Below are positions 6,784 through 60,792 of a stretch of DNA of 64,000 bases, piece by piece. The stretch spans positions 1 to 64,000 of the IMG/VR virus record IMGVR_UViG_3300023184_000048. One strand, written 5' to 3'. Source of the DNA: a virus. Position 1 is the first letter of the stretch; each line of letters begins with the position of its first letter. Below the pieces are notes generated by a model. The model was not told where the DNA came from and searched no databases. It saw nothing but the letters and a program-made list of their open reading frames with translations. The position numbers were made by a program, and so were the translations under genes.

Positions 6784-6790
6784 TTAAATA
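6784..6790 (+). promoter_or_regulatory. Late-type box TTAAATA before the GIY-YIG gene
   Basis: TTAAATA 5 nt before ATG 6796. It would give the homing endonuclease its own late transcript inside an otherwise early operon, as T4 seg and I-Tev genes have late promoters. Confidence 0.5.
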
Positions 6791-6795
6791 TATGA

Positions 6796-7497
6796 ATGAG
6801 AAAACATATATTATATCCAAAATTGGCCGGTATTTATAAATTAACATGTATTGACAATGGAAAAATCTATATAGGAAAATCAGTCAATATAAGAAATAGA
6901 TTATCTACATATAAAGGACAGGCCAAACAATCTAAAAGTAATTGGTATTTTGGGAAAGCCCTTATAAAGTATGGGTGGAACTCTTTTACAGTTGAAATAT
7001 TAGAAATTTTTGAACCGTTTGATAAATTAAAAGATAATCATGCTCTTTTAGATAGGGAGGCTTATTATATAGAATTATATGACGCAACTAATACTAAAAT
7101 TGGTTATAATATTTGCAAATATTCTAATGATGGGACAGGGATACCGAGTAGACCGATCACAGAAGAACACCGAGCAAATCTAAGAAAGGCCAGAGCATTA
7201 CAAGTGAGAGGACCGCTGACCGAAGAGCAGAAACAAAAGATGAGGGGAAGGGTTTGTAGTGAAGAGACAAAGGAGAAAATTAGAAACACCAAAAAGGGAA
7301 CAACATTATCCGAAGAGCATAAGGAGAAAATAAGGCAGAGTTGTATGGGAAATACACACACTGAAGAGTCTATAGAAAAAATGAGACAGGCAAAAAGAGG
7401 TGGTAAACATTCCGAAGAGGCAAAACAAAAAATGAGAAATTCCAGATTACTATATTTGGAAAATAAAAAAATAAAAAAATATGAAAAAAGAATTTAA
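6796..7497 (+). CDS. GIY-YIG homing endonuclease with NUMOD3 repeats (Seg-like)
   Basis: 233 residues. GIYKLTCIDNGKIYIGKS at 12-29 is the GIY-YIG catalytic signature, followed by the Arg of the second motif (NIRNRL) and a Glu-bearing REAYYIELYD helix. Residues about 137-215 hold three to four copies of the NUMOD3 DNA-binding pattern (SEExKEKIRxxxxG). Such enzymes cut a specific site in phage lacking the gene and spread by repair. Inserted between the clamp and a hypothetical gene. An alternative ATG lies at 6792 in another frame. The C-terminus is Lys-rich and overlaps the next gene by 17 nt. Confidence 0.92.
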   Translation: MRKHILYPKLAGIYKLTCIDNGKIYIGKSVNIRNRLSTYKGQAKQSKSNWYFGKALIKYGWNSFTVEILEIFEPFDKLKDNHALLDREAYYIELYDATNTKIGYNICKYSNDGTGIPSRPITEEHRANLRKARALQVRGPLTEEQKQKMRGRVCSEETKEKIRNTKKGTTLSEEHKEKIRQSCMGNTHTEESIEKMRQAKRGGKHSEEAKQKMRNSRLLYLENKKIKKYEKRI

Positions 7498-8302
7498 AGA
7501 ATTAAAAGATTTACAATTGAAAGGTATAGTCGAATTATACGAGTCTTCAAATTTGGAAGATACCAAATCGGTCACTGGTAGTAATATACCTTATAGGATT
7601 TTAAAATTAAGTTGGAACAATGATCAGCCAGAACTCCTGATACAATACCCAGATTCTCCACATTTTTTAGAAATTCCGAGAGCAAGAGGTTCATCTTCTT
7701 GTGGTAATACTATTCACGTTAATTTCTCAAATCCTTTTTATAAAAATATATTGGATGAGAATGATAGGGTTGAGGATCTATACATCCAAAGGCCAAATGC
7801 GATGTTGAAAAATGATTGTTTATATCATAATTTCCTAACCACAATTTCCAGAATTGTGACTGATCCATATTCAAAGTTGGAGGATATCAACCCAACATTA
7901 TTGATTGACATTATTGAACATGGGTATTATGAATGTGTTCCAAAAATTCAAGTTCCTGAATATGTCATGAATATTGAACATATTACAGAAATTCCATTTG
8001 ATTATCTTTTAATTACCCATGACAAATATGTTTATAGTTATGACACTATGAGAGCATTTTTTTGTAAACTTAATGGAAGTCATAAACAATTAAAAGTTGA
8101 AAAGTTTAATAGAATGAGAGATGGAGGAACTACTAGGATTAAATTAGGGTGTGGTTATGGATTAGATGATCAGAAATATGAATTTTATAGTCCAACACCT
8201 TTTAAGCCAGAGCTTAAATGTTCTTTGGATGGTTGGGAAATTGATCGTATTGATAAAAATACAGAATTGGTTGAAAAGGTCATGAAGTCTGTTATATTTT
8301 AA
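7481..8302 (+). CDS. Hypothetical protein
   Basis: 273 residues, alpha/beta by pattern, with no recognised motif. Several Cys (SSSCGN, LKNDCLY, YYECVP, LGCGYG) are scattered rather than paired. It starts inside the end of the homing endonuclease gene and ends overlapping the next ATG by one base. The resident operon gene into whose 5' side the endonuclease inserted is probably this one. Confidence 0.6.
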   Translation: MKKEFKELKDLQLKGIVELYESSNLEDTKSVTGSNIPYRILKLSWNNDQPELLIQYPDSPHFLEIPRARGSSSCGNTIHVNFSNPFYKNILDENDRVEDLYIQRPNAMLKNDCLYHNFLTTISRIVTDPYSKLEDINPTLLIDIIEHGYYECVPKIQVPEYVMNIEHITEIPFDYLLITHDKYVYSYDTMRAFFCKLNGSHKQLKVEKFNRMRDGGTTRIKLGCGYGLDDQKYEFYSPTPFKPELKCSLDGWEIDRIDKNTELVEKVMKSVIF

Positions 8303-8640
8303 TGAATCCTAAAAATAAAATCACTACTTGCGGCTACTTCCTTAAACGATTAAGGGATTCCGACTTCATTGCTATTAGATTATTTGGAGAGTATGGTAAA
8401 CATGATCCAAGATCTTGGACTATTTGTGTAGATCCAACTGGACATTCATTAATGATCACTTGTTATGAGAATAAAGATTATAATGGTGATATTATGTTTG
8501 AATTTAATGATGGTGGAAACAAATTTCCCAAGAATTACAATTTACTAACAGATTCGATGGAAATAGTCATTACTACGATGATTGAAAGAGGCATACAACA
8601 GAAAACAGAAGATAGCATTTTTATCAAGACTAGACAATAA
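8302..8640 (+). CDS. Hypothetical protein
   Basis: 112 residues; ATG shares a base with the preceding stop (TAATG). Small alpha/beta pattern with strands SWTICVDPTG and SLMITCYEN and a C-terminal helix. No family recognised. Confidence 0.58.
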   Translation: MNPKNKITTCGYFLKRLRDSDFIAIRLFGEYGKHDPRSWTICVDPTGHSLMITCYENKDYNGDIMFEFNDGGNKFPKNYNLLTDSMEIVITTMIERGIQQKTEDSIFIKTRQ

Positions 8641-8651
8641 TCCAAATAGTC

Positions 8652-8658
8652 TTAAATA
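8652..8658 (+). promoter_or_regulatory. Late-type box TTAAATA before a GTG-start gene
   Basis: TTAAATA 6 nt before GTG 8665. It marks the GTG as the first codon of a predicted leaderless mRNA. Confidence 0.5.
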
Positions 8659-8664
8659 ATTTAT

Positions 8665-8961
8665 GTGGACGACGAAGAACCAATTCAAGACTTCTCAGAT
8701 GTTGAAATAACCAAGATTCTTAAAGAAGCACTTAAGGTGAAGCTTGAAGAAAAAAAGAAAATCCCAACCAGAGTTCAACTTAATAGAGCATTAGTTTCTA
8801 CTCTTGGTGAATTTCTGGGTTGTTACAAGCTTATGGGTTATGATCTTGATGGAAACCCAATCAGTATGACTGTTTATAATAATAAATTACAAAAATCTGC
8901 ACTAGAAAATCGATTTATGCAAGAAATTGGCGTTTTTATGAGCACCAGAGAAGAATTATGA
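8665..8961 (+). CDS. Conserved-looking small phage protein
   Basis: 98 residues from GTG 8665; the ATG two bases earlier is in another frame that closes quickly. The sequence is compact and well ordered: an acidic start (DDEEPIQDFSDVE), a helix with KKKIPTRVQLNRALVSTLGEFLGCYKLMGYDLDGNPI, and a C-terminal helix ending in MSTREEL. The PTRxQLxxALVSxLGEFL...GYDxDGN pattern seems familiar from T4-like cyanophage proteins of unknown role. It may be a transcription accessory, but I cannot support that. The next gene is ATGA-coupled. Confidence 0.6.
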   Translation: MDDEEPIQDFSDVEITKILKEALKVKLEEKKKIPTRVQLNRALVSTLGEFLGCYKLMGYDLDGNPISMTVYNNKLQKSALENRFMQEIGVFMSTREEL

Positions 8962-9224
8962 ACATTTTCCACCAATTATTCAAAGTTGGCAATTCCTATG
9001 CAGTTACTCAAGGTGATCTACTGGGCCAAATCCTGATCTATGTCGAGTCCACAAAGACGCACAAGTGCTTTGTCACCATCCCAAAGCTGGAAAATCTTGA
9101 AATTCCGAAAGAAATCTTTGACTCTGGGTTGAAATCTGGTATAGTCGAGTTTATTGAACGTGTGCCGAATGAATTTAGAAAAACGATTGCGCTCCAGTTT
9201 GAGCAAAACAAAAAAGAACTTTGA
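8958..9224 (+). CDS. Hypothetical protein
   Basis: 88 residues, ATGA-coupled to the gene before and overlapping the primase start by about 56 nt. The N-terminal half is beta-rich (VGNSYAVTQGDLLGQILIYVE), the C-terminal half a helix. Possible small SH3-like fold. Unrecognised. Confidence 0.55.
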   Translation: MNIFHQLFKVGNSYAVTQGDLLGQILIYVESTKTHKCFVTIPKLENLEIPKEIFDSGLKSGIVEFIERVPNEFRKTIALQFEQNKKEL

Positions 9225-10239
9225 TTTACCGGAAGATTATGTAGTTTCTAAGTTCTATGAGCTTGGGTATAAAATATACCACAATCGGTATAATAATACA
9301 TATCAAAGTTGTTGCCCAATCTGTCATGAAGGTAAGTCTTGGGGTAGAAAGCAAAGATGTTACTATATACCAGAGAATAAAAACATTTTTTGTCATAATT
9401 GTGGTGCCTCACACACACCCTACAATTGGATCAGAGAGGTGTCAGGAATGTCCGACACTGAATTGTGGCAGGACTTCAGTAAAGGTTCCTACGAATACCT
9501 AGACGCTGATCCTGTGACTAAAGAGAAGCCAAAACAACCTACTCTTCCAGTTGATTGTATTAATTTATTTGATCCTAATCAAATTAGGTATTATATTGAT
9601 AATACTATCGTCCAATATGCTTGGAATTATGTTCAATCTAGAAGATTGAATACTGCAATCAATAGACCACATGCTGTTTACATATCTTTGAAGGATTACA
9701 CGCATGGTAATCGTTTGGTTATACCATTTAAAGAAGAATCAGATCAAATTGTATTCTATCAATCTAGAAAAATCTTTGATAAGGATGAAAAAGAGAATTA
9801 TATCTCTAAAATGGATTCCGAGAAGACCATTTATGGTATTGAAAGAGTTTCTACTGATATAGACACTGTATTTCTATTTGAAGGACCGATTGATGCCTCA
9901 TTTATTAAGAATGGGCTTGGGGTTGCAGGTATTACTAAAGGTGCTCAAAGATTCACCCAAAAACAAGAAGAACAACTTGAATCAGTTCGATTCTTTGATA
10001 AGATTTGGTTCCTCGATAGTCAATGGTTGGATGAAACATCCAGAATCAAAACAGAAATGTTATTGAAGATGGGTGAGAAGGTATTCATCTGGCCTGAAGC
10101 TTATGGTAAGAAGTTCAAAGACCTTAATGAAATGTGTATTCATCATGGATTGGATCAAATATCACCAAAGTTTGTAAAACAACACTCTATTAGCGGGGAT
10201 GGATCTGTTTTAAAGTTTAAATCAATGATGAAAATTTAG
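9169..10239 (+). CDS. gp61: DNA primase (T4 gp61/DnaG type)
   Basis: 356 residues from ATG 9169. The N-terminal zinc-binding domain has CPIC at 49-52 and CHNC at 75-78. After a linker comes the Toprim core: VFLFEGPIDASFI at 234-246 supplies the catalytic Glu, and IWFLDSQWLD at 279-288 the acidic pair. It makes RNA primers for lagging-strand synthesis and works with the gp41 helicase, whose end opens this window. The length is close to T4 gp61 (342). TTG 9154 is in frame but less likely. It ends in a 4-nt convergent overlap with a leftward gene and closes the replication operon. Confidence 0.87.
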   Translation: MNLEKRLRSSLSKTKKNFDLPEDYVVSKFYELGYKIYHNRYNNTYQSCCPICHEGKSWGRKQRCYYIPENKNIFCHNCGASHTPYNWIREVSGMSDTELWQDFSKGSYEYLDADPVTKEKPKQPTLPVDCINLFDPNQIRYYIDNTIVQYAWNYVQSRRLNTAINRPHAVYISLKDYTHGNRLVIPFKEESDQIVFYQSRKIFDKDEKENYISKMDSEKTIYGIERVSTDIDTVFLFEGPIDASFIKNGLGVAGITKGAQRFTQKQEEQLESVRFFDKIWFLDSQWLDETSRIKTEMLLKMGEKVFIWPEAYGKKFKDLNEMCIHHGLDQISPKFVKQHSISGDGSVLKFKSMMKI

Positions 10240-10571
10240 TCTTCTCCCCTATCGAAAGCTCCACCAGTGTTGGCTTTAAATCTTGGATTAACTCCCAATT
10301 CTTGCATAGCATCCAAAATCTTATTTTTATCACCAGCATTTATTGATAAAATACTTTTCCAAACCAAACGATCATCCATATTACGAAGCTCATTAACTAA
10401 AGCTGCGACACTTTGGTATTCTTCACTGTTAATTAGATCTGATTCCCAAGTATCTTGATATGCATGATCATCTTGACCATCAGTAGATCCATTATGACCA
10501 CCCGAATGGTCATCAAAGGCTTCTGTATACAGTTTAGCGAGTGCTTCTTGATCTTCTTTAATTAATTTCAT
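10236..10571 (-). CDS. Small putative virion/internal head protein
   Basis: 111 residues on the minus strand. The N-terminus MKLIKEDQEALAKLYTEAF closely resembles that of the protein at 46482 (MIRLNREDQLLLEELYLDV), suggesting a shared targeting helix. The middle is Asp/His/Gly-rich (DDHSGGHNGSTDGQDDH), the end helical. A TATAAAA sequence lies upstream but only 2 nt from the ATG, so the promoter is uncertain. Function unknown; internal head or virion role inferred from the N-terminus. Confidence 0.6.
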   Translation of the reverse strand: MKLIKEDQEALAKLYTEAFDDHSGGHNGSTDGQDDHAYQDTWESDLINSEEYQSVAALVNELRNMDDRLVWKSILSINAGDKNKILDAMQELGVNPRFKANTGGAFDRGED

Positions 10572-10600
10572 ATTTTTATAAGTTGTTGATTGTCAGTAAT

Positions 10601-11032
10601 TTATACGTTGCGGTAACGTGGATTGCTTGTTTGAGCCATGAATCCTAAAAAGTTTTGATGGAGAGAAGCCAAGTCAGAAGCAACTCTAGAAATTTTGGAT
10701 TGTTGGGATTGTTTCATCTTATCCATAACAGTATCAGGTTCAGCAGCAGCCAAACGAGATTGAATTGAATCTGGTTGTTCACTATTGAGAAAGGTTAAGA
10801 ATTCTTGAACTTTATCAGTCCATCCTTGAAGTTCTTGCACCATTTGAGCATTTCTGCGACTCATTGCATCCGCAACTTCACTTGTTTGTGCATCTTGAGC
10901 ACCAATAGAAGTATCTACATCGAAATCGGTAGGATCTGTTCCATCGTCAAGACTTGCTTCCATGGCTCTGCGCTCCATATCAGCACTATCCTCTTTGAGA
11001 ACCTTCATAAATTGTTTAGCGAATAAACTCAT
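10601..11032 (-). CDS. Putative virion protein with helical tail
   Basis: 143 residues. The start at 11032 (MSLFAKQFMKVLKEDS) is fixed by a late box 5 nt upstream; an in-frame extension to 11119 would run through a divergent promoter. The N-terminal amphipathic helix fits the series of targeting-like N-termini in this phage. Residues 20-60 are acidic and the rest is helical and Gln/Ser-rich (MKQSQQSKISRVASDLASLHQNF), a coiled-coil pattern. Function unknown. Confidence 0.62.
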   Translation of the reverse strand: MSLFAKQFMKVLKEDSADMERRAMEASLDDGTDPTDFDVDTSIGAQDAQTSEVADAMSRRNAQMVQELQGWTDKVQEFLTFLNSEQPDSIQSRLAAAEPDTVMDKMKQSQQSKISRVASDLASLHQNFLGFMAQTSNPRYRNV

Positions 11033-11037
11033 ACGTT

Positions 11038-11044
11038 TATTTAG
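11038..11044 (-). promoter_or_regulatory. Late-type box CTAAATA (minus), half of a divergent pair
   Basis: CTAAATA on the minus strand, 5 nt before ATG 11032. Paired head-to-head with the box at 11052, only 7 bp apart. Confidence 0.6.
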
Positions 11045-11051
11045 CTCAGAG

Positions 11052-11058
11052 TTAAATA
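11052..11058 (+). promoter_or_regulatory. Late-type box TTAAATA (plus), half of a divergent pair
   Basis: TTAAATA 5 nt before ATG 11064. The whole divergent control region between the two start codons is 31 bp. Confidence 0.6.
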
Positions 11059-11063
11059 TAATC

Positions 11064-11438
11064 ATGGCAAATACCGGAGCATCTCCATATTCAACTTCAT
11101 TTTTGAGTAAGAACATCAAAATGGATTTAGATCCAAGTTCTCAAATGCGTGAGTATAAGAAAAGAGAAGAAGATGCGATTCCTAAAAATACTTTACCATT
11201 TGAATTATCAAACCTCCCAAACCATTTTGCAAATATGGTTGACTGCGGTATTCAAGCTTGTAAAACACTTGAAGACATTTCTAAAACTCCTGATTATGAA
11301 GATTCTGAGGACTTGGCTAAGTTGAAAAGGAATGTTGAGAAGATGGTTGTCTATTTGGTGCAGAATGTAGACCATATTCTTGAAAAATACACGATTGGTG
11401 CTAGGCATGATAAGGATATTGAAGAAAATGATGATTGA
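11064..11438 (+). CDS. Hypothetical, probable late protein
   Basis: 124 residues from ATG 11064, set by the late box. The N-terminus is flexible (MANTGASPYSTSFLSKN), followed by a charged segment and a long helix (DLAKLKRNVEKMVVYLVQNVDHILEKY), ending acidic (DIEENDD). Upstream in-frame codons exist but would lie in the opposite gene. Probably a structural or head-related protein by its promoter type; no family recognised. Confidence 0.58.
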   Translation: MANTGASPYSTSFLSKNIKMDLDPSSQMREYKKREEDAIPKNTLPFELSNLPNHFANMVDCGIQACKTLEDISKTPDYEDSEDLAKLKRNVEKMVVYLVQNVDHILEKYTIGARHDKDIEENDD

Positions 11439-11462
11439 CATTCAGATGTGGTAGCATAGCAT
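11435..11462 (+). promoter_or_regulatory. Weak early-type promoter TTGACA-N16-TAGCAT
   Basis: TTGACA (11435-11440) and TAGCAT (11457-11462) lie 16 bp apart, 7 nt before ATG 11470. Same geometry as the ACTAG-spacer promoters but without that spacer sequence. Confidence 0.4.
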
Positions 11463-11469
11463 TCATAAT

Positions 11470-11670
11470 ATGAATGCCAATAAGAAGACAATCGAGGTTG
11501 ATGTGGGATCTTTACAAGATTTAAAATTTTTTATCTTAAAGCTTGAGAGATGTATAGATAATTCAAAATTGGGTCATGAAAGGTATATGAAACAAGTTTT
11601 GACACTTTTAGATTCTATTATAACGTATGGTGAATGTAGATATGATATTGATCAAATTATTACCAAATAA
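11470..11670 (+). CDS. Hypothetical small protein
   Basis: 66 residues. A short strand (TIEVDVGSLQDL), then two helices. The ATG sits 7 nt after a possible -10 element; a second ATG four bases on is out of frame. Likely an early accessory protein; unrecognised. Confidence 0.5.
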   Translation: MNANKKTIEVDVGSLQDLKFFILKLERCIDNSKLGHERYMKQVLTLLDSIITYGECRYDIDQIITK

Positions 11671-11710
11671 AAGACTTCTATTTGAATCAGAATTGAAGTT
11701 TAATCGAAGA

Positions 11711-11917
11711 ATGGCTGTGAAATATGAATTGGATTTTGAAGTTGGGTGTATATTTGACAGATCCTTAAAATATTATGGGAATGCAAATAATAAAGTTCTC
11801 TGTAGAATACAGATGAAATCTGGAAGGGTTGCTGAATATCTACCGACCATAACAAAATATTGGGGTGATACGGGGCAAAAGAGTTGGAAGTTTGAATTCA
11901 TCCGATATTTGGATTGA
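11711..11917 (+). CDS. Hypothetical small protein
   Basis: 68 residues from ATG 11711, beta-rich (MAVKYELDFEVGCIFDRS, NKVLCRIQMKSGRVAEYLPT). The frame extends upstream to 11627 but that overlaps the previous gene. Unrecognised accessory gene. Confidence 0.48.
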   Translation: MAVKYELDFEVGCIFDRSLKYYGNANNKVLCRIQMKSGRVAEYLPTITKYWGDTGQKSWKFEFIRYLD

Positions 11918-11941
11918 TTAATCCACTCCATGTGCTAAATT
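11914..11941 (+). promoter_or_regulatory. Possible early promoter TTGATT-N16-TAAATT
   Basis: TTGATT (11914-11919) and TAAATT (11936-11941), 16 bp apart, 6 nt before ATG 11948, the same distances as in the ACTAG promoters. It could instead be read as a late-like CTAAATT. Confidence 0.35.
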
Positions 11942-12431: not shown

Positions 12432-12839
12432 ATGAGAGAAATTAAATTTAGATTTTGGAATAAAGATCAAAAAAAGTTTTATTATGCTGATACTCTAGAA
12501 TCTATTTCTACTATTGGGAAATTGGCTGGAAATATTCCATTAAATTGGATGGATTATCAACAATACACAGGGCTAAAAGACAAAAACAGTAAAGATGTTT
12601 ATGAAGGTGATATTCTCAAGGCTTATGCAAATAATACTGGTGGGTGGGGTGTAGATCAAGGACAATATGATTATTATTTGAAAAATGGTTTGAAGATTGT
12701 AACATTTAAAGATAATAGAATGTGTTTAGTTGATGCAGATAAGAATAATATATCCAATATGACATATGGGTTGAATGAAAACGTTGAAGTGGTTGGTAAT
12801 ATTTTTGAAAATCCTGAATTACTCATTGACATTAATTAA
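12432..12839 (+). CDS. YopX-like protein, copy 1
   Basis: 135 residues with the typical YopX-family frame: start MREIKFRFWNKD, centre QQYTGLKDKNSKDVYEGD, end VVGNIFENPELL. The family is common in phages of many hosts, and its function is unresolved. Copies 2 and 3 are at 53576 and 62818. An in-frame start at 12396 exists inside the gene before, but MREIKF is the family start. The ACTAG-type promoter for the next gene lies inside its 3' end. Confidence 0.85.
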   Translation: MREIKFRFWNKDQKKFYYADTLESISTIGKLAGNIPLNWMDYQQYTGLKDKNSKDVYEGDILKAYANNTGGWGVDQGQYDYYLKNGLKIVTFKDNRMCLVDADKNNISNMTYGLNENVEVVGNIFENPELLIDIN

Positions 12840-12854
12840 AAACTAGACCATAAT
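12826..12854 (+). promoter_or_regulatory. Early promoter, ACTAG-spacer family
   Basis: TTGACA (12826-12831), 17-bp spacer with ATTAAAAACTAG, CATAAT (12849-12854). ATG 12864 follows 9 nt later. Lies over the stop of the YopX gene. Confidence 0.7.
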
Positions 12855-12863
12855 CACCTCAAC

Positions 12864-19257: not shown

Positions 19258-19264
19258 TATTTAA
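19258..19264 (-). promoter_or_regulatory. Late-type box TTAAATA (minus)
   Basis: TTAAATA on the minus strand 6 nt before ATG 19251; drives the distal fibre genes. Confidence 0.6.
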
Positions 19265-23354: not shown

Positions 23355-23361
23355 TATTTAA
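23355..23361 (-). promoter_or_regulatory. Late-type box TTAAATA (minus) before a GTG start
   Basis: TTAAATA on the minus strand 5 nt before GTG 23349. It overlaps the stop region of the 166-residue gene. Confidence 0.6.
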
Positions 23362-26560: not shown

Positions 26561-26567
26561 TATTTAA
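26561..26567 (-). promoter_or_regulatory. Late-type box TTAAATA (minus)
   Basis: TTAAATA on the minus strand, 6 nt before ATG 26554 and touching the last codon of the repeat-fibre gene. Confidence 0.6.
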
Positions 26568-27642: not shown

Positions 27643-27649
27643 TATTTAA
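27643..27649 (-). promoter_or_regulatory. Late-type box TTAAATA (minus)
   Basis: TTAAATA on the minus strand 5 nt before ATG 27637; first promoter of the leftward fibre block. Confidence 0.62.
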
Positions 27650-27766: not shown

Positions 27767-27774
27767 TATAAATA
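27767..27774 (+). promoter_or_regulatory. Late promoter box TATAAATA (exact T4 consensus)
   Basis: TATAAATA 6 nt before ATG 27781. The 143 bp between the two divergent genes otherwise hold only AT-rich sequence with T-runs. Confidence 0.65.
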
Positions 27775-29570: not shown

Positions 29571-29577
29571 TATTTAG
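29571..29577 (-). promoter_or_regulatory. Late-type box CTAAATA (minus)
   Basis: CTAAATA on the minus strand 5 nt before ATG 29565, between two leftward virion-type genes. Confidence 0.6.
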
Positions 29578-30500: not shown

Positions 30501-30507
30501 TATTTAA
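30501..30507 (-). promoter_or_regulatory. Late-type box TTAAATA (minus), half of a divergent pair
   Basis: TTAAATA on the minus strand 6 nt before ATG 30494; 7 bp from the plus-strand box. Confidence 0.62.
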
Positions 30508-30514: not shown

Positions 30515-30521
30515 TTAAATA
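30515..30521 (+). promoter_or_regulatory. Late-type box TTAAATA (plus), half of a divergent pair
   Basis: TTAAATA 5 nt before ATG 30527. The divergent control region is only 32 bp. Confidence 0.62.
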
Positions 30522-32148: not shown

Positions 32149-32155
32149 TTAAATA
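32149..32155 (+). promoter_or_regulatory. Late-type box TTAAATA before the GTG of gp25
   Basis: TTAAATA 5 nt before GTG 32161. A box fixed at this distance supports GTG as the true start. Confidence 0.63.
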
Positions 32156-32651: not shown

Positions 32652-32658
32652 TTAAATA
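32652..32658 (+). promoter_or_regulatory. Late-type box TTAAATA before gp6
   Basis: TTAAATA 6 nt before ATG 32665, starting 2 bp after the gp25 stop. Confidence 0.63.
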
Positions 32659-34476: not shown

Positions 34477-36686
34477 GCAGCACAACAACCACAATTAACT
34501 TCTCATGTGTCGATTACAGGGGTGAACAATCCCTATCGTCTTATGCTATTCCGATAACTCCTTTTTTTCTAACTCCCGATTTATCAGAACTGGCGTTGAG
34601 CGCAATTAACAGCCATAAAGTTATTTGGGATTTTGGTGACGGCACAACATCAAAATCATTCTCAGCGGTTAAGTCATATGAATTTCCCGGAATATATGAC
34701 ATTAATCTTGTCATCTATGATTGCAACAATAATGCACTCATATCAACCCAGACAAAAATAGTTCAGGTGTATGATTATTTGCCATATACATTTAATATTA
34801 GGGCTTATGGTAGATTTCTGACAGAGGATGGTTCATATATTATTTCGGAGGACGGATCATATATTGTCAGTGAGGTTCCAGTGATTGAAATAAAAGCAGG
34901 AAAAATTGAGGGATCATTTAACTTTGAATCTACCTACCCAGCGTATCAGCCTCCAACAAGCATATATTACGAAGTGTCTGGATCTGACAGTAATAATTAT
35001 TGGGAGATATATAAAAATAAGTTCGAGCATTTGGATAATAGCTATGCTATATACGAACAAACGTATAATTTTAGCATATCAGCAAATCAATATCATCAAT
35101 TGAAAAATATACAATTTGATGTATCTGATATTTATGCCAAAGTATCTGAAGGTTCGGTCATCAGATGTTCAAAAGAAGACATCAATTCTTGTTTGGTTGG
35201 TAGATCTGGGAATAAAGATGTATATATCAAAGATGATGCCCCATCTCAAAATTCAAAATGGAAATTCTTTTTCGATAAAACGAAAAATAAGTTACCTTTT
35301 TACAATGGTAACACAAATCATCTGAATAATTTAGCTATAGTTATGAGTCTGAGCGTCTTAGAAAACACTCCAGATCATTTATCCATTACTTCTAATGGTC
35401 TTGATGGTGAGGGTGTGACTGTTGACTCTTTTAATATAAATCCCATAAAATATTTTGATACTAAAATACCATTTGTGATTAGGATCAAAGATATTGATAA
35501 TTTTTCTATAAAAGACTTTCAAACTATACAATTGTCCGCATTATCAATAACATTATCTGCGATTGGCAATGTTCAAATCGTCGATGAAAATGGTCAATTT
35601 TTATTGAACGAAAATGGGGAAGAGATTTATGCGACTGGAGTAAATTATCTGCTATCGAATACACAATATAGTATATCTTCTTTGAATTATACATTATCAT
35701 CACAGGATTCTGGTGGATCTTTTAGAGGATATATACAATTCTCAACCAATCCAGAGAATACAATTTTACAAAATGTAAAAATATACACATCAGCCACGGT
35801 CATCAGTAATCAATTAAGCTCATATGAATTATCTGGAAGTTCATCATTTTTTAACGTTTATTCAAAAAATTATTTTGATTTGTATAAAAAGAATGAGGAT
35901 TTCAATCCAGAGCAGACATTGAAAGATTTAAGATTTCAAGAAACTCTTTTAGATAAAGAAGTATTGTTTGGAGATTTTCTTGGTGGATTATTGGGTAATG
36001 AAAATTCTGATCATGAAGGTATCGGCTTGAAGATTTATGAAAAAATAGCAAACTTTGTTGGAAATACCCAAGATATTGACACTTGTGAAGAGGATCATAT
36101 AGAATCTTTGGGATTATTTTTAGGATATAATAACAAAAATGAGGAGAACTACACATATCCAGAAAAGATAAAGAGAATACTTAACTTAGCGTCAATCGAT
36201 AAAACCAAACTTGTAGGAATTGATAATAAGTTTGCAGAAAATTTTGATATTAAGGGAAGATCATCCAAAGATGAATACGGAATCAATACAGGAGATATTA
36301 TAGATCCAAATACATATATAGTCACTGCTGGTATCCCTATAGTAGCTCTCGAAAAGTTTAGTAATACCTATTCCCTATTAAACACATTCCAACCCGTTTC
36401 GGCTGTTGGGTCATTCACATATCCCCTCAGTTTATATAATTCTGACTTTGGTTGGCCATTGGTCCTTCCAAGCGATTTTGATTATAAAGATTTTTCAAAA
36501 TATTATATATTTTTTGAATACGTTGATCAATATGATGGTAGTGTGGTTGGTTCTCTGGGAGATTTTGTAAATGATAAAACAACAATAGATTCAAGTTCGT
36601 CAAGTTCTGACTTATACGGAGAAAGTGGTATATTCCAGAATATGTTCATGGATACTTTATATCAATCACTCTCTTTGATTAATTAA
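34473..36686 (+). CDS. Baseplate-associated protein with PKD domain
   Basis: 737 residues. Residues about 45-95 are a PKD-type Ig domain: KVIWDFGDGTTSKSFSAVKSYEFPGIYDINLVIYD in outline, with the WDFGDG and Y..PG.Y..L hallmarks. Around 115-140 and 370-390 are LTEDGSYIISEDGSYIVSE and VDENGQFLLNENGEEI motifs. The C-terminal 250 residues look helical then mixed (LKDLRFQETLLDKEVLFGDFLGGLLG). It follows gp6 by ATGA overlap, the place of gp7 in T4 wedges, though no gp7 similarity can be asserted. Probably a wedge-peripheral or fibre-attachment protein. Confidence 0.62.
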   Translation: MSSTTTTINFSCVDYRGEQSLSSYAIPITPFFLTPDLSELALSAINSHKVIWDFGDGTTSKSFSAVKSYEFPGIYDINLVIYDCNNNALISTQTKIVQVYDYLPYTFNIRAYGRFLTEDGSYIISEDGSYIVSEVPVIEIKAGKIEGSFNFESTYPAYQPPTSIYYEVSGSDSNNYWEIYKNKFEHLDNSYAIYEQTYNFSISANQYHQLKNIQFDVSDIYAKVSEGSVIRCSKEDINSCLVGRSGNKDVYIKDDAPSQNSKWKFFFDKTKNKLPFYNGNTNHLNNLAIVMSLSVLENTPDHLSITSNGLDGEGVTVDSFNINPIKYFDTKIPFVIRIKDIDNFSIKDFQTIQLSALSITLSAIGNVQIVDENGQFLLNENGEEIYATGVNYLLSNTQYSISSLNYTLSSQDSGGSFRGYIQFSTNPENTILQNVKIYTSATVISNQLSSYELSGSSSFFNVYSKNYFDLYKKNEDFNPEQTLKDLRFQETLLDKEVLFGDFLGGLLGNENSDHEGIGLKIYEKIANFVGNTQDIDTCEEDHIESLGLFLGYNNKNEENYTYPEKIKRILNLASIDKTKLVGIDNKFAENFDIKGRSSKDEYGINTGDIIDPNTYIVTAGIPIVALEKFSNTYSLLNTFQPVSAVGSFTYPLSLYNSDFGWPLVLPSDFDYKDFSKYYIFFEYVDQYDGSVVGSLGDFVNDKTTIDSSSSSSDLYGESGIFQNMFMDTLYQSLSLIN

Positions 36687-36689
36687 ATA
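36683..36689 (+). promoter_or_regulatory. Late-type box TTAAATA
   Basis: TTAAATA 5 nt before ATG 36695, overlapping the stop of the PKD gene. Confidence 0.62.
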
Positions 36690-39144: not shown

Positions 39145-39151
39145 TATTTAA
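39145..39151 (-). promoter_or_regulatory. Late-type box TTAAATA (minus)
   Basis: TTAAATA on the minus strand 5 nt before ATG 39139; lies directly downstream of a terminator. Confidence 0.62.
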
Positions 39152-40145: not shown

Positions 40146-40152
40146 TATTTAG
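40146..40152 (-). promoter_or_regulatory. Late-type box CTAAATA (minus), half of a divergent pair
   Basis: CTAAATA on the minus strand 5 nt before ATG 40140. Confidence 0.62.
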
Positions 40153-40164: not shown

Positions 40165-40171
40165 TTAAATA
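40165..40171 (+). promoter_or_regulatory. Late-type box TTAAATA before terminase
   Basis: TTAAATA 6 nt before ATG 40178. It selects this ATG over TTG 40175 and the out-of-frame ATG 40171. Confidence 0.62.
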
Positions 40172-41942: not shown

Positions 41943-41949
41943 GTAAATA
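41943..41949 (+). promoter_or_regulatory. Late-type box GTAAATA
   Basis: GTAAATA 6 nt before ATG 41956, 2 nt after the terminase stop. A one-base variant of the common box. Confidence 0.5.
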
Positions 41950-42535: not shown

Positions 42536-42542
42536 ATAAATA
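42536..42542 (+). promoter_or_regulatory. Late-type box ATAAATA before a GIY-YIG gene
   Basis: ATAAATA 5 nt before ATG 42548, giving the mobile gene its own late start. Confidence 0.55.
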
Positions 42543-43445: not shown

Positions 43446-43484
43446 ATTTAATCAAATAAATTTTCATCCTAAATTTGATTAAAT
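43446..43484. repeat. 12-bp inverted repeat carrying two opposed late boxes
   Basis: ATTTAATCAAAT (43446-43457) and ATTTGATTAAAT (43473-43484) are exact reverse complements around a 15-nt centre. The right arm holds the gp18 late box; the left arm holds the same box on the minus strand. It could be an operator-like palindrome, a hairpin, or a duplicated promoter. Confidence 0.7.
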
Positions 43485-43485
43485 A
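43479..43485 (+). promoter_or_regulatory. Late-type box TTAAATA before gp18
   Basis: TTAAATA 5 nt before ATG 43491, in the right arm of a 12-bp inverted repeat. Confidence 0.65.
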
Positions 43486-45881: not shown

Positions 45882-45888
45882 TTAAATA
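45882..45888 (+). promoter_or_regulatory. Late-type box TTAAATA before gp19
   Basis: TTAAATA 5 nt before ATG 45894, restarting transcription after the gp18 terminator. Confidence 0.65.
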
Positions 45889-46469: not shown

Positions 46470-46476
46470 CTAAATA
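46470..46476 (+). promoter_or_regulatory. Late-type box CTAAATA
   Basis: CTAAATA 5 nt before ATG 46482; picks this ATG. Confidence 0.62.
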
Positions 46477-48960: not shown

Positions 48961-48967
48961 TTAAATA
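48961..48967 (+). promoter_or_regulatory. Late-type box TTAAATA before the tape measure gene
   Basis: TTAAATA 6 nt before ATG 48974; the ATG itself is preceded by GGG. Confidence 0.63.
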
Positions 48968-48973: not shown

Positions 48974-50941
48974 ATGGATGAAGTTATCCTTAAATTATTA
49001 GGCTTATTGGAACAACTCGTAGAAGAGAAAGGTGTTCCAAAGACTGATAATTTGGCTGATAAGAACATTGTTAACAATGAGGATAATCAGAAGGGTAAAT
49101 CTGCTGGACTAACGAACATTGAAAAGAAAAGACTTGAGCAATCTTTTACAATTTTCAACAAGTTGTTTTTTGAATATCAAAAGAAAGTAATGCCTGATGA
49201 AAAGGAGAAAACATTAGTTCAGGATATCGCGAAGAAACAAAACACAACAGTAATACCAGCAGAACAATATCAAGAGAAGAAAGGTTCTGGTATGTTATCA
49301 ATGCTTTTAGGTGGATTGGCTTTATTAGGAGCATCTGTTGGAGGCATCATAGCTTCATTATCTGGGTTCTTTGGTGATGCTGGTAGTAAAGTGTTGGAGG
49401 CTGTTGGCAAACTTGGCTTTATGGGAGCACTGAAAATGCTGAGTAAAACAATCCTCAAAAAATTATCTTTAAAAGTTTTGAAGAGATTGCCATTCATTGG
49501 TGGTATCATAGGATTGTATTTTGCTTACGATGCTTTCAAGCAAGGTAATATTTTTAAAGGTGTTGCTGAATTGATATCTGCATTACTTAATTTTGTTCCC
49601 GGTATTGGTCCTATATTGTCCATAGGAGCAGATTTGTTGATTGCTTGGGCTGATAGTAAGGGAATGTTCTCCGAAGGTGGTTCATTGAGTCCTGAGAACG
49701 GTTGGAATACGATTAAGGGTTGGGTTAGTAGTATTGGTAAGGTTATTTCTGATAATGCTTTATATCTTCCAATCATTGGAACATTTATGAGATTTGGAAT
49801 GGCTATTGATTCATTCAAATCTGGAAATATCGGAGAAGGCTTGAAACAAGTTGGTCTTGGACTATTTACATTGATTCCGGGTGGTGGATTATTGATCAAA
49901 GGTATTGAAGTCCTTTCAGGATTTCTAAACTCTGATAAATCACCAGAACCTAATATTACTGCTGATAGTTCTTGGGGTGAAAGAATCATGGGTTGGATCA
50001 GATCCAAGTTAAAAGACCTTCCATGGTTTATCAAAAAGCCATTAGCATGGTTTGGTATTATTTCTGATGATCAGGTCGGTGAACCTTCTGGAATGTGGAA
50101 TAGTGTCACTGATGGTGTTAAAAAAGGATTTGAAAGCACTAAGCAATTTGTTGGTGGTATTTGGGATAAAGTTAAAGGACCAATGGGTGATGCTGTTGGT
50201 GTCATAGGTGAATTTGCTACTGATGCTTGGACCAACACTAAAGAATATGCTTCACAAGCATGGGACATGGTTAAGGAGCAGGCACCGAAGATTTGGGACT
50301 CTATCAAGAACACTTCAAAAGAAGCTTGGGACTTGGTTGCTGAATATGCGCCGAAGGCTTGGAACTCTGTTAAAGAAGTATCATCTAAAGCTTGGGAGGT
50401 TACTAAACAGGCTGGATCATGGTTTGCTGATACGATAAGTGAAATGGCAACCAAGACAAAAAATCTAATCAATGATTGGATACCCGGAATTGTGAATGTT
50501 ATATCTGGTATTGCTGATGGAGCTATGAACGTTCTCAAGAGTATTGCTGATAAGATTGGTGGCTGGATTGCTGGTCTATTTTCATCTGATGACCAAAGCA
50601 AATTAAAAGAAGTCACCAAACAAGCTTCGGAAAAACAAAAATTGATAGCTGATACATCTTTGTCCAATATGAATATAGAGAATCTGGTGAAGGGTTCAAT
50701 TATTCAAAATAATTGGATGGAGAATCTACACAAGGCATCTCTTGAACAAGTTAGACTTCTCGGTAATCTTGTTAATATCGGATCAAGCTCATTACAAGAG
50801 TTGAAGAGAATATCTGGTAATAATTCTGGAGGTGGAACTACAATCATTCAACAATCATCCAATCAATCGGAAAAAACTCCATTAATTCCAGTTGGGAATA
50901 ATAGAGGAGGCTTCAGTTCTAGCTCATATGCGCTTTCTTAA
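48974..50941 (+). CDS. Tail tape measure protein (gp29 equivalent)
   Basis: 655 residues. N-terminal coiled helix; hydrophobic Gly-rich segments at about 110-135 (MLSMLLGGLALLGASVGGIIASL) and 175-225, typical of tape measures that enter the membrane. Residues about 418-484 carry at least six 11-residue repeats with Trp every 11th position (AWDMVKEQAPK, IWDSIKNTSKE, AWDLVAEYAPK, AWNSVKEVSSK), the hendecad W/F pattern of tape measure proteins. The end is Ser/Gly/Gln-rich. In T4 gp29 sets tail length from the hub; sequence similarity to gp29 is not visible, so the name rests on build and position. Confidence 0.75.
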   Translation: MDEVILKLLGLLEQLVEEKGVPKTDNLADKNIVNNEDNQKGKSAGLTNIEKKRLEQSFTIFNKLFFEYQKKVMPDEKEKTLVQDIAKKQNTTVIPAEQYQEKKGSGMLSMLLGGLALLGASVGGIIASLSGFFGDAGSKVLEAVGKLGFMGALKMLSKTILKKLSLKVLKRLPFIGGIIGLYFAYDAFKQGNIFKGVAELISALLNFVPGIGPILSIGADLLIAWADSKGMFSEGGSLSPENGWNTIKGWVSSIGKVISDNALYLPIIGTFMRFGMAIDSFKSGNIGEGLKQVGLGLFTLIPGGGLLIKGIEVLSGFLNSDKSPEPNITADSSWGERIMGWIRSKLKDLPWFIKKPLAWFGIISDDQVGEPSGMWNSVTDGVKKGFESTKQFVGGIWDKVKGPMGDAVGVIGEFATDAWTNTKEYASQAWDMVKEQAPKIWDSIKNTSKEAWDLVAEYAPKAWNSVKEVSSKAWEVTKQAGSWFADTISEMATKTKNLINDWIPGIVNVISGIADGAMNVLKSIADKIGGWIAGLFSSDDQSKLKEVTKQASEKQKLIADTSLSNMNIENLVKGSIIQNNWMENLHKASLEQVRLLGNLVNIGSSSLQELKRISGNNSGGGTTIIQQSSNQSEKTPLIPVGNNRGGFSSSSYALS

Positions 50942-50944
50942 ATA
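50938..50944 (+). promoter_or_regulatory. Late-type box TTAAATA overlapping a stop codon
   Basis: TTAAATA shares TAA with the tape measure stop and ends 5 nt before ATG 50950. Confidence 0.63.
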
Positions 50945-53545: not shown

Positions 53546-53569
53546 CTTTATTAAAAACTAGAATATCAT
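53542..53569 (+). promoter_or_regulatory. Early promoter, ACTAG-spacer family
   Basis: TTGACT (53542-53547), 16-bp spacer with ATTAAAAACTAG, TATCAT (53564-53569), then 6 nt to ATG 53576. It lies on the end of gp27. Confidence 0.72.
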
Positions 53570-53575
53570 CAGGGC

Positions 53576-53932
53576 ATGGGTAAAATTAAATTCAGAGCTT
53601 GGACTGGTGAGAGATTCGTGGATGAAGATTATTTCTATATAAGATATGGAAAGGTTTACACGATTACAGAATTTGATGGACTGGTCGATAAAAAATGGAT
53701 TCCTCAACAATACACTGGATTAAAAGATCTTAATAAAAAGGAGATTTATGAGGGTGATGTTTTCGAAGGGTCTACTTATAAATGGGAAGCTGTAGAATTC
53801 AAAGATGGTAGGTTCCAAGTCAACCTCATGGGGGCTAGAGTATATTCTTTGGAAGAGTTGTGTTGTGATATGGATCATATGCCACCAACAGTGATTGGGA
53901 ATATTTTCGAAAATCCTGAGCTTCTTAAATAA
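53576..53932 (+). CDS. YopX-like protein, copy 2
   Basis: 118 residues. Start MGKIKFRAWTGERF, centre IPQQYTGLKDLNKKEIYEGDVFEG, end VIGNIFENPELL. The shortest of three copies. The predicted mRNA starts at or within a base of the ATG. Confidence 0.87.
   Translation: MGKIKFRAWTGERFVDEDYFYIRYGKVYTITEFDGLVDKKWIPQQYTGLKDLNKKEIYEGDVFEGSTYKWEAVEFKDGRFQVNLMGARVYSLEELCCDMDHMPPTVIGNIFENPELLK
53925..53931 (+). promoter_or_regulatory. Late-type box TTAAATA before a GTG start
   Basis: TTAAATA overlaps the YopX stop and ends 6 nt before GTG 53938. Confidence 0.6.
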
Positions 53933-54404: not shown

Positions 54405-54656
54405 ATGAATGATAAACAAAGAGAGAAGAGACATAAAAAGAATCAAAAGTCCAAACTCAAAAAGAAACTATTGAAGGAGATTAGACTTGATAAGTTTATT
54501 TTATGTTGTAGGCATAATTTGGTGGAATGGGGTTGCGACTGCTTCGCTGGGTGTGATTCCTGTGATTATGATAAACAATGTTCAAAGTGTCAAAGTCTTT
54601 ACAGCCCATCAGATCGGGTAAACTTCTTAAATATTCTTTGTGATAAACACCATTGA
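54405..54656 (+). CDS. Small Cys-rich basic protein
   Basis: 83 residues, 2 nt after the gene before. The first 30 residues are a basic helix (REKRHKKNQKSKLKKKLLKEIR). The rest holds eleven Cys/His candidate ligands: CCRH, CDCFAGCDSC, CSKC and a final CDKHH. Probably a two-zinc nucleic-acid or ubiquitin-type binding module. Unrecognised. Confidence 0.57.
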   Translation: MNDKQREKRHKKNQKSKLKKKLLKEIRLDKFILCCRHNLVEWGCDCFAGCDSCDYDKQCSKCQSLYSPSDRVNFLNILCDKHH

Positions 54657-55560: not shown

Positions 55561-55564
55561 GTTC

Positions 55565-55592
55565 TTGACATTATTAAAAACTAGTTTATAAT
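55565..55592 (+). promoter_or_regulatory. Early promoter, ACTAG-spacer family (consensus copy)
   Basis: TTGACA, 16-bp spacer with ATTAAAAACTAG, TATAAT: the best copy. ATG 55617 is 24 nt downstream, so this is the one member with a real leader. A TAAAATA 5 nt before that ATG could be a second, late-type start. Confidence 0.75.
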
Positions 55593-55616: not shown

Positions 55617-56264
55617 ATGCCATATCTAAATCATAACATTCCAACAATCACTTGTTTGATGAGAAACCAATTTCTTTTCAATCATGAAAGTGGGTTCGGT
55701 GAATATACGCCATGCGATGTTCATAGTGTCGCATCAATCGAAAAAAGAGTTCCATTATTCGAAGCTTTTTTAACCAATGGGGTCAATTGGACAAGACGAC
55801 CAATCACAGCATTTTGTTGGAAAGAGTGTGATCCCGTGCCGTTACATCGTGCCATGTATTGGGATTGCTTTAGTCCATATATCGATGTCCAGATAAGAAC
55901 AAGATTAAAAGGTCTTAGAGCCAAACTGATTACACCAGATGGAGATAAAGAATGGGGTGAATATATGTTTACTCTTGATTGGGGTTGGGAGAATAAATCC
56001 ATTCTTGATACAAATTTTTCTGAAACACCAGAACATAAATGCGCCCATTTATTTAAAATGGATAATGGAAATTTTTATGCTTATCCCAATAATAGAATTA
56101 TCTGGCATGATAAAGCGTGGACCGACATCTTACTTGATAAAAATCCGGGTTACAGAATTGATATGAATGTGTATAGTGTAGAAAACAATTGTTTGCAAAA
56201 TACCGATTATAGTTATATGACTGAGTTCACCTCTCCAAAAAATTTAGAACTTAAACGTCAATAG
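55617..56264 (+). CDS. Hypothetical protein
   Basis: 215 residues, Trp/Tyr/Cys-rich (FCWKECDPVPLHRAMYWDCFSPYIDVQIRTRLKGLRAKL), mixed alpha/beta. Several conserved-looking aromatic and acidic clusters (DWGWENKS, NNRIIWHDKAW, YRIDMNVYSVEN) suggest a well-folded enzyme-like or binding domain. No family recognised. Early promoter upstream; convergent with the TerS candidate. Confidence 0.6.
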   Translation: MPYLNHNIPTITCLMRNQFLFNHESGFGEYTPCDVHSVASIEKRVPLFEAFLTNGVNWTRRPITAFCWKECDPVPLHRAMYWDCFSPYIDVQIRTRLKGLRAKLITPDGDKEWGEYMFTLDWGWENKSILDTNFSETPEHKCAHLFKMDNGNFYAYPNNRIIWHDKAWTDILLDKNPGYRIDMNVYSVENNCLQNTDYSYMTEFTSPKNLELKRQ

Positions 56265-56756: not shown

Positions 56757-56763
56757 TATTTAA
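56757..56763 (-). promoter_or_regulatory. Late-type box TTAAATA (minus)
   Basis: TTAAATA on the minus strand 5 nt before ATG 56751. Confidence 0.62.
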
Positions 56764-59795: not shown

Positions 59796-60007
59796 TGTTC
59801 ATCATCCTTTCTAATGATATAACCTTTACTTTTAAGAATATCACTTATATTAATCCAAATATCCTCATCTTCTTTAAAATTATTACTAATATAAATAGTT
59901 CCATTCTCTAGCTGAGATGCTTCAGGTATCAACCCTTGTTTGAAATGATTGTAAGCTGTTCTATAAGTTATTCCCTTCTCCTTCGCGTAATCCGATAATT
60001 TCATCAT
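59792..60007 (-). CDS. Small MerR/IS607-type HTH protein
   Basis: 71 residues. KLSDYAKEKGITYRTAYNHFKQGLIPEASQLENGTIYI in outline is the N-terminal helix-turn-helix of IS607-family serine recombinases and related excisionase-like proteins, including the G-T-I-x-I wing. The recombinase domain is absent. The late box fits the first of two adjacent Met codons (60007). It shares a transcript and an ATGA overlap with the GIY-YIG gene, so it may direct or control that endonuclease. Confidence 0.7.
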   Translation of the reverse strand: MMKLSDYAKEKGITYRTAYNHFKQGLIPEASQLENGTIYISNNFKEDEDIWINISDILKSKGYIIRKDDEQ

Positions 60008-60012
60008 ATAAT

Positions 60013-60019
60013 TATTTAG
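60013..60019 (-). promoter_or_regulatory. Late-type box CTAAATA (minus)
   Basis: CTAAATA on the minus strand 5 nt before ATG 60007; drives the HTH plus endonuclease pair. Confidence 0.62.
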
Positions 60020-60048
60020 TATATTTTACATATTTTTACATATTTTTC

Positions 60049-60076
60049 TTGAATTAATTAAAAACTAGAATACAAT
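60049..60076 (+). promoter_or_regulatory. Early promoter, ACTAG-spacer family
   Basis: TTGAAT (60049-60054), 16-bp spacer with ATTAAAAACTAG, TACAAT (60071-60076), then 6 nt to ATG 60083. Confidence 0.7.
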
Positions 60077-60082
60077 ACGGCT

Positions 60083-60544
60083 ATGTTAAATCAATTTCAT
60101 AAAAATAATTTGAAAGAGCAATGGGAAATCGATTTGGCTAATGATTTTCCCGAATTTTTCCTAGAACCTTCAGAAGAGGTTTTGAAAATATGGGAGGAAT
60201 ATCATGAGACTGGTGATATGCCTAGAAATAAAGAAGACCTATGCAACCTTAGATATGGTATGGAATTCAGGTCAGGTTGGTCAGGAATTGCTAGAGATCA
60301 TTTTGAATCTATCAGAAAACTTATCCAAAAGGCTAAGGATAATGGACATGATCTGGGTTATAAAGGTTTCATCATCAAACAAAAATGGCACACCTTGAGG
60401 GATCAGAGTGATCTTATTGGAGAAGATCGAAAGTTGTATTATAAGGAATATTCTAATTTGGTGGAAGATCTTTATGATAAATCAACCAAGGTTGATGAAA
60501 AAACAGGAGAACCAATTAATCAAGCTTTTGAACGATTATTTTAA
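60083..60544 (+). CDS. Hypothetical early protein
   Basis: 153 residues, helical, rich in aromatic and charged residues (FPEFFLEPSEEVLKIWEEYHETGDM, GWSGIARDHFESIRKLIQKAKDN). First gene of a unit read from an ACTAG promoter. Unrecognised. Confidence 0.58.
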   Translation: MLNQFHKNNLKEQWEIDLANDFPEFFLEPSEEVLKIWEEYHETGDMPRNKEDLCNLRYGMEFRSGWSGIARDHFESIRKLIQKAKDNGHDLGYKGFIIKQKWHTLRDQSDLIGEDRKLYYKEYSNLVEDLYDKSTKVDEKTGEPINQAFERLF

Positions 60545-60546
60545 TT

Positions 60547-60792
60547 ATGAAAAAGACTTATAGAGGATGTGAAATCTATTCCAACCGCGAAAAGTGCTTA
60601 GGTGGATGGTCGCAAGTTTATTGGGGTGCTTTCGATCTAAAGGATGGGTATCAAATTTCGTGTGATCACACTGAAGGACCAGTGAAAGACGGCGTGTTAT
60701 ATGCTAAGACATCAGTAGATGAATATCTAGATGAATATAAGTCTGATCAAGATAAACATTCTGATCGTTGGTCATCTCTTTATAAATATTAA
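60547..60792 (+). CDS. Hypothetical small early protein
   Basis: 81 residues. MKKTYRGCEIYSNREKCLGGWSQVYWGAFDLKDGYQI is beta-rich, with a helical acidic end. 2 nt after its neighbour. The late promoter of the metalloprotease gene lies over its stop. Unrecognised. Confidence 0.56.
   Translation: MKKTYRGCEIYSNREKCLGGWSQVYWGAFDLKDGYQISCDHTEGPVKDGVLYAKTSVDEYLDEYKSDQDKHSDRWSSLYKY
60781..60788 (+). promoter_or_regulatory. Late promoter box TATAAATA (exact T4 consensus)
   Basis: TATAAATA 5 nt before ATG 60794, inside the last codons of the gene before. Confidence 0.67.

Follow-up and report, generated by a model that had tools for sequence, protein, structure and literature searches.

Two promoter classes set at fixed distances from start codons suggest leaderless mRNAs in a clade of uncultured T4-like phages

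What does it mean for transcription and translation when a late promoter box ends at the same few nucleotides before one start codon after another? The question is raised by a 64,000-nt stretch of viral DNA (hereafter the window), bases 1–64,000 of the 116,741-bp IMG/VR virus record IMGVR_UViG_3300023184_000048 (G000), which encodes the T4-type proteins gp18 (tail sheath, 43491–45812 in the window), gp17 (terminase, 40178–41941), gp25-like and gp6-like proteins, a gp44 clamp loader and a tape-measure-like protein. A first-pass annotation had noted such boxes before about 28 genes on both strands, and had read them as promoters of leaderless late mRNAs. Our analysis of the window and its relatives supports this interpretation overall and extends it: very probably there are two real promoter classes, late and early-type, whose predicted transcription start (+1) lies at the start codon, with most of their mRNAs being leaderless or carrying a leader of 1–3 nt.

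Boxes were scored by d, the number of nucleotides between the end of the promoter box and an ATG or GTG opening an open reading frame (ORF) of at least 60 codons. The window has 47 [CT]TAAATA words, and in 27 of them the box end lies 5 or 6 nt 5' of a start, against 0.45 expected (binomial p ~1e-42), and with any first letter (NTAAATA) the count is 31 of 71 (0.68 expected). The boxes listed in the first-pass annotation are all present at their place and on their strand, including those before the GTG starts at 8665, 23349, 32161 and 53938. Over the whole record, no other distance within 0–39 nt holds more than 2–3 boxes. Could AT-rich DNA simply make TAAATA frequent near ATG? The low GC content (33.5%) and the 8-mer TATAAATA, which is not enriched (7 found, 9.4 expected), would fit such an origin, but the distance distribution rejects it, with a 5–6 nt peak far above chance and other distances near zero, as does the conservation of the spacing in 80 relatives sharing 48–75% gp18 identity; we regard the probability of chance as practically nil. 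Of the 35 words made by permuting the letters of TTAAATA, the only ones with a fixed-distance peak as strong or stronger were TATAATA/ATATAAT, and these belong to a second promoter class described below. The earlier naming of the motif holds for the 7-mers TTAAATA and CTAAATA, which are enriched, and not for the full 8-mer. The working late signal is the 7-mer [TC]TAAATA, with the first letters of the 8-mer unconserved, and it fits the TATAAATA-like −10 box of a T4-type late promoter, the first letters of which vary among T4-like phages (e.g., NATAAATA in S-PM2 and CTAAATA in Aeh1; PMC1524935).

In T4, the late box spans −13 to −6 of the transcript (PMC1524935), and with a box at d = 5 transcription would therefore begin on the start codon's first base, as the first-pass annotation had reasoned. 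The start codons at d = 5 boxes comprise 527 ATG, 64 GTG and 6 TTG, and the scarcity of TTG fits a need for a purine at +1. Bacterial RNA polymerase favours a pyrimidine at −1 and a purine at +1. The box also fixes start codons, for example ATG 39139 rather than the longest ORF start at 39178.

When all 6-mers were counted, without prior choice, at each distance 5' of ORF starts, a signal stronger than the late box came up. This is the second promoter class, ATTAAAAACTaRaTATAATA, in which TATAAT ends exactly 6 nt 5' of the ATG, before about 50 genes of the G000 record, mostly at 64–116 kb. The leaderless layout had been proposed as a late-gene trait; it is found at the late boxes, and equally at these further genes, where another promoter keeps just as strict a distance. 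In the G000 record, the genes behind the second promoter include many small ones, an rIIA homologue and RNA ligases, and we named the class early on this ground, its timing being presumed. The early genes would thus be leaderless too, a point that the first-pass annotation had missed. Early-type promoters precede 24–62 genes per genome, with lineage variants, and the placement of TATAAT 6 nt before ATG recurs in five marine genomes and one gut relative. The upstream element is TAATTAAAACCG in G001 and G006 and TTAAAAACTA[CG]A in G002 and G005, with a TATAAT-like −10 behind each of them at an unchanged distance; in the gut relative G014 (a 238-kb phage contig in a goat-gut metagenome-assembled genome (MAG), 31% gp18 identity), ACAGAAC occupies the same place, with TATAAT 6 nt before ATG, and 62 genes have the exact early spacing. 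The upstream element varies by lineage and the promoter geometry is constant; because the element differs among lineages, the exact G000 motif recurs in IMG/VR only as single stray matches in 8 contigs. No word resembling the MotA box TGCTTTA is enriched near −30, the conserved element lying at about −24 to −15, so the class does not match T4 middle promoters. Of the host sigma70 −35 hexamer TTGACA, expected 17 bp upstream of TATAAT, TTGA(C) occurs at that place in several promoters (window 12838, 53553, 55576, and 61800) and is absent from the consensus. A search for extra sigma70 region-2 genes for the early promoters gave none above the cut-off, gp55 itself scoring weakly. Two further early-type calls, at window 15452 and 59611, were judged chance hits and are not listed as features.

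In both classes, the −10 element ends about 6 nt before the start codon and the predicted +1 falls on that codon (d = 5 late, d = 6 early), as expected of leaderless genes. The early TATAAT begins at −12 from the ATG, matching what has been published as the mark of leaderless genes in bacteria, a TANNNT some 12 bp ahead of the start, described in Actinobacteria and Deinococcus-Thermus (PMC3160421), although here the genes are viral, two promoter classes are used at once, and a lineage-specific element stands beside the −10.

If these are promoters, the initiating bases should follow the promoter. Over the five genomes in which nucleotide context was counted, a pyrimidine stands at −1 in 77 of 81 early genes vs. 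258 of 401 internal cistrons (p = 2e-9), and in G002 the base is C in 97% of early genes. Where the ATG of an early gene lies 3 nt further on, the pyrimidine at −1 and the purine at +1 of the promoter-defined start are kept in 26 of 26 marine cases, and late boxes with 2–5 nt leaders show a pyrimidine-purine step at bases 5/6 past the box in 34 of 70 vs. 153 of 635 (p = 4e-5). The initiator tracks the promoter, not the codon. Further, promoters favour operon-first over tightly coupled genes: over six phage genomes, either promoter is found in 147 of 256 genes with an opposite-strand upstream neighbour and in 38 of 533 with a co-directional gap of at most 5 nt.

These patterns bear on the alternative that both motifs, TAAATA and the TATAAT type, serve translation as AT-rich ribosome-binding or enhancer elements within a leader, as in bacteria that lack Shine-Dalgarno (SD) sites. 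Upstream of internal cistrons the sequence is indeed rich in A (62% have A at −3) and lacks SD, and A at −3 is a positive initiation determinant in Flavobacterium johnsoniae, where, as in Escherichia coli, A at −6 also boosts initiation (PMC6847099); it is this −6 position that the final A of a d = 5 box occupies. However, the boxes stand before 57% of operon-first and 7% of tightly coupled genes, a bias not expected of a translation signal, the late word corresponds to the T4 late promoter in phages that encode gp55, the initiator shifts with the promoter and not with the ATG, and two unrelated words share one −10 geometry. The operon-first bias and the promoter-tied initiator lead us to reject translation signals as the main explanation, and we consider this alternative highly improbable.

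Alternatively, the promoters may be real while the relevant transcripts start elsewhere, at upstream promoters, by readthrough or through processing, so that most of the translated mRNA has a leader. Polycistronic readthrough is usual in T4-like phages, and co-directional boxed genes with gaps of 6–20 nt could be read from upstream. On the other hand, many boxed genes are divergent (11032/11064, 27637/27781, 30494/30527, and 40140/40178) and have no co-directional upstream gene as a source of a leader, and boxed genes share no SD or other conserved leader signal upstream, which makes this alternative improbable. In the five genomes counted, SD-like words occur at 1 of 81 early starts, 6 of 232 late starts and 48 of 401 internal starts, and a k-mer scan found no SD word enriched in the clade, whereas the same scan detects SD in T4 and in HTVC008M. 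Taken together, fixed promoter spacing and the lack of SD imply that first cistrons should use leaderless initiation and later ones SD-less initiation, and efficient leaderless translation of the boxed genes, as proposed in the first-pass annotation, is what we infer. Leaderless translation is known in bacteria, and GUG works in this position in some species, although poorly in E. coli (PMC9031893). We searched for phage-encoded helpers of such initiation: no tRNA with an initiator-type anticodon stem was found in six genomes, and S21, known from HTVC008M, was searched for and not found. The tRNA complement of G001 includes a cluster of 21 tRNAs (1470–12161), one with anticodon CTA (reported as tRNA-Pyl), which might allow amber suppression.

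Is the close spacing a general property of T4-like phages? At least 116 IMG/VR stretches encode a relative of the window's gp18, and the 80 relatives sharing the spacing hold 443 boxes at d = 5 and 114 at d = 6, where any other distance has about 9 on average. Counted likewise, T4 late boxes pile up 26–29 nt before starts and cyanophage boxes (P-SSM2, AG-345, and S-RSM4) at about 20–30 nt, and the same count gave no distance peak in the pelagiphage HTVC008M or in Mel-JY01. As the peak occurs in the relatives and other T4-like groups are without it, close spacing is a property of the clade and not a general T4-like trait, which the first-pass annotation had not recognized; its contrast with the SD-bearing leaders of T4 agrees with the T4 peak at 26–29 nt and with the SD found there. 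The distribution also bears on whether genome compaction merely pushed promoters against starts, with leaderlessness as a by-product, an explanation that competes over the reason and not over the mechanism. Short intergenic gaps are common, and the gut relative tolerates leaders of 0–5 nt, but compaction predicts a spread of short distances and not a single-nucleotide peak (443 at d = 5 vs. 41 at d = 7), and T4 and cyanophages are compact as well, yet their boxes lie 20–30 nt away. We give compaction a small but real chance.

The genes that follow late boxes, and the gp55 and gp45 encoded by relatives, fit a T4-type late promoter (in T4, TATAAATA with gp55/gp33/gp45), which the clade resembles in the core word, the spacing from box to predicted +1, the position upstream of structural genes and the presence of gp55 and gp45, although here the predicted +1 is the start codon. 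Across G001, G002, and G005, homologues of gp6, 13, 17, 18, 20, 21, 23, and 25 mostly have a late box either directly before them or before the gene just above. We found gp55 in 9 of 14 clade records (e.g., G007, 93972–94337), including all seven longer than 150 kb, and gp45 in 8 of 14, including six of those seven. G001 has a second, shorter gp55-like match at 24741–24983 besides its main gp55, which could be a paralogous sigma factor. A gp55 homologue in a gut contig of a Paludibacteraceae MAG (G015:C113:361416-361892) carries a TAG codon within its reading frame, as do genes of TAG-recoded gut phages.

Read together from the sequence, the fixed geometry, clade-wide conservation, operon-first enrichment, promoter-tied initiator and occurrence of gp55 and gp45 in relatives suggest a scheme for the factor serving each promoter class, the early and late timing, the true 5' ends and their leaderless translation. 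Host RNA polymerase with the phage sigma factor gp55 (and gp45) would read [T/C]TAAATA ending at −6 and begin on the A or G of ATG/GTG. In the early class, the polymerase would read TATAAT at −12 to −7 together with the conserved element AAAAACTA, AAAACCGA or ACAGAAC, depending on lineage, which adjoins the −10 at about −24 to −15, and would begin on the A of ATG. Ribosomes would then initiate at the start codon that forms the 5' end of the mRNA, with neither leader nor SD site, and at downstream cistrons of the same mRNA in an SD-less, A-rich context.

Which hosts would translate such mRNAs? We somewhat favour Bacteroidota: SD is lacking, A is common at −3, aquatic T4-like genomes have been predicted to infect Bacteroidetes (PMC7198788), and RM378, with its own closely set box, is a phage of Rhodothermus marinus. 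Two distant gut relatives are binned differently, one in a Lachnospiraceae and one in a Paludibacteraceae MAG, and since these bins conflict we draw no host call from them. A cyanobacterial host is unlikely, given that psbA is absent from the 14 records and that no photosynthesis family is among the 25 listed for 54 proteins of G002.

Several points weigh against start-codon promoters that yield leaderless mRNAs. The −1 pyrimidine signal is weaker in the late class (176 of 232 vs. 258 of 401, p = 0.003), and a purine at base 6 past d = 6 boxes is found in 63%, a partial signal only. In the gut relative G014, late leaders are scattered over 0–5 nt, and promoters with clear leaders occur at window 55564 and record 90250. 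Neither gp55 nor gp45 was found in the G000 record, which is a fragment. The relatives are uncultured metagenome contigs with mechanical gene calls, and the best named relatives of gp17 and of the relatives' gp23 share 32–35% identity over most of their length among 50,697 named phage records, and therefore no close cultured member exists among those records. The early −10, TATAAT, mismatches the Bacteroidota TAnnTTTG box (PMC9723704), and most flavobacterial mRNAs carry a leader: 87% of those of F. johnsoniae have one of more than 10 nt (PMC6847099), and 5.5% of those of Flavobacterium psychrophilum are leaderless (PMC9723704). Both points count against a Bacteroidota host and, if the hosts do belong there, against the leaderless reading.

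In a portal-protein tree, G001, G002, G005 and a gut phage stand apart, with strong support, from the T4, cyanophage and pelagiphage groups and from RM378 and Mel-JY01; the G000 record lacks a portal gene and was placed by gp18. The tree does not group the clade with the Far-T4 (RM378-like) phages and pairs RM378 with Mel-JY01, RM378 being a long branch whose placement is less sure. RM378, a cultured Far-T4 phage of Rhodothermus, resembles the clade in having a fixed box, TTATTTAA, mostly 6–9 nt from the start codons of about 20 genes on the two strands, together with a sigma-factor gene, and its transcripts possibly have very short leaders, but it differs in the box itself, in an A-rich spacer without a pyrimidine-purine start and in its separate lineage. 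In the Thermus phage P23-45, middle and late transcripts are leaderless, but it is an unrelated phage of a host rich in leaderless mRNAs and is not known to have a gp55-type promoter. Outside Actinobacteria, Deinococcus-Thermus and archaea, such mRNAs usually form a minority class. Marine T4-like and Far-T4 environmental genomes of 140–180 kb and 32–33% GC, predicted to infect Bacteroidetes (PMC7198788), resemble the clade in being uncultured, aquatic and T4-like; we saw no promoter or leader analysis in that report. Phage transcripts have been said in passing to be often leaderless (PMC5312081), and we found no paper in the open-access literature linking leaderless mRNA with T4-type late promoters. 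T4-type late boxes and leaderless mRNAs are each known; judged against that literature, a clade of T4-like phages in which promoters of both classes merge with the start codons appears to be new.

Tentatively, and with somewhat less than even confidence, we suggest that a T4-like branch rebuilt both promoter sets for leaderless mRNAs in adapting to non-SD hosts, probably Bacteroidota, with a new lineage-specific early factor acting at the element upstream of the −10. If true, much of a lytic programme can run on leaderless initiation, with dozens to more than 100 genes per genome, and several hundred leaderless and internal starts would form a natural comparison set. Start codons would be fixed to the base, providing a simple annotation rule for a widespread uncultured group, and the signature (lineage-specific element, TATAAT, 6 nt, ATG) could be used to classify or bin such phages. 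If the hosts are Bacteroidota, the system also bears on start choice by ribosomes that ignore SD.

The promoters of the window are listed in Table 1.

Table 1. Late boxes and early-type promoters in the window, with the start codons they precede.
Element	Positions	Strand	Start codon	Gene or remark
Late box TTAAATA	6784..6790	+	5 nt to ATG 6796	GIY-YIG/NUMOD3 homing endonuclease
Late box TTAAATA	8652..8658	+	6 nt to GTG 8665	
Late box CTAAATA	11038..11044	-	5 nt to ATG 11032	divergent with 11052 box
Late box TTAAATA	11052..11058	+	5 nt to ATG 11064	
Early-type promoter TTAAAAACTagaccATAATC	12832..12855	+	ATG 12864	ATG 3 nt past predicted +1
Late box TTAAATA	19258..19264	-	6 nt to ATG 19251	
Late box TTAAATA	23355..23361	-	5 nt to GTG 23349	758 aa
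Late box TTAAATA	26561..26567	-	6 nt to ATG 26554	899 aa
Late box TTAAATA	27643..27649	-	5 nt to ATG 27637	
Late box TATAAATA	27767..27774	+	6 nt to ATG 27781	
Late box CTAAATA	29571..29577	-	5 nt to ATG 29565	
Late box TTAAATA	30501..30507	-	6 nt to ATG 30494	divergent with 30515 box
Late box TTAAATA	30515..30521	+	5 nt to ATG 30527	
Late box TTAAATA	32149..32155	+	5 nt to GTG 32161	gp25-like baseplate wedge
Late box TTAAATA	32652..32658	+	6 nt to ATG 32665	gp6-like baseplate wedge
Late box TTAAATA	36683..36689	+	5 nt to ATG 36695	
Late box TTAAATA	39145..39151	-	5 nt to ATG 39139	sets start (longest ORF from 39178)
Late box CTAAATA	40146..40152	-	5 nt to ATG 40140	
Late box TTAAATA	40165..40171	+	6 nt to ATG 40178	gp17 terminase
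Late box GTAAATA	41943..41949	+	6 nt to ATG 41956	tail-tube family
Late box ATAAATA	42536..42542	+	5 nt to ATG 42548	
Late box TTAAATA	43479..43485	+	5 nt to ATG 43491	gp18 tail sheath
Late box TTAAATA	45882..45888	+	5 nt to ATG 45894	
Late box CTAAATA	46470..46476	+	5 nt to ATG 46482	
Late box TTAAATA	48961..48967	+	6 nt to ATG 48974	tape-measure-like
Late box TTAAATA	50938..50944	+	5 nt to ATG 50950	
Early-type promoter ATTAAAAACTAGAATATCAT	53547..53570	+	ATG 53576	predicted +1 = A of ATG
Late box TTAAATA	53925..53931	+	6 nt to GTG 53938	
Late box TTAAATA	54627..54633	+	6 nt to GTG 54640	
Early-type promoter TTGACATTATTAAAAACTAGTTTATAATT	55564..55592	+	ORF ATG 55617	leadered exception
Late box TTAAATA	56757..56763	-	5 nt to ATG 56751	
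Late box CTAAATA	60013..60019	-	5 nt to ATG 60007	
Early-type promoter ATTAAAAACTAGAATACAATA	60054..60077	+	ATG 60083	predicted +1 = A of ATG
Late box TATAAATA	60781..60788	+	5 nt to ATG 60794	
Early-type promoter ATTAAAAACTAGGATATAATG	61794..61817	+	ATG 61823	predicted +1 = A of ATG

Two of the listed features deserve a remark on their surroundings. The exception to the leaderless rule at 55564–55617 has TTGACA at −35 and a predicted leader of about 20–25 nt, and stands before a ferredoxin-family (phrog_3704) gene. The GIY-YIG homing endonuclease with NUMOD3 occupies 6796–7497, immediately 3' of its late box.

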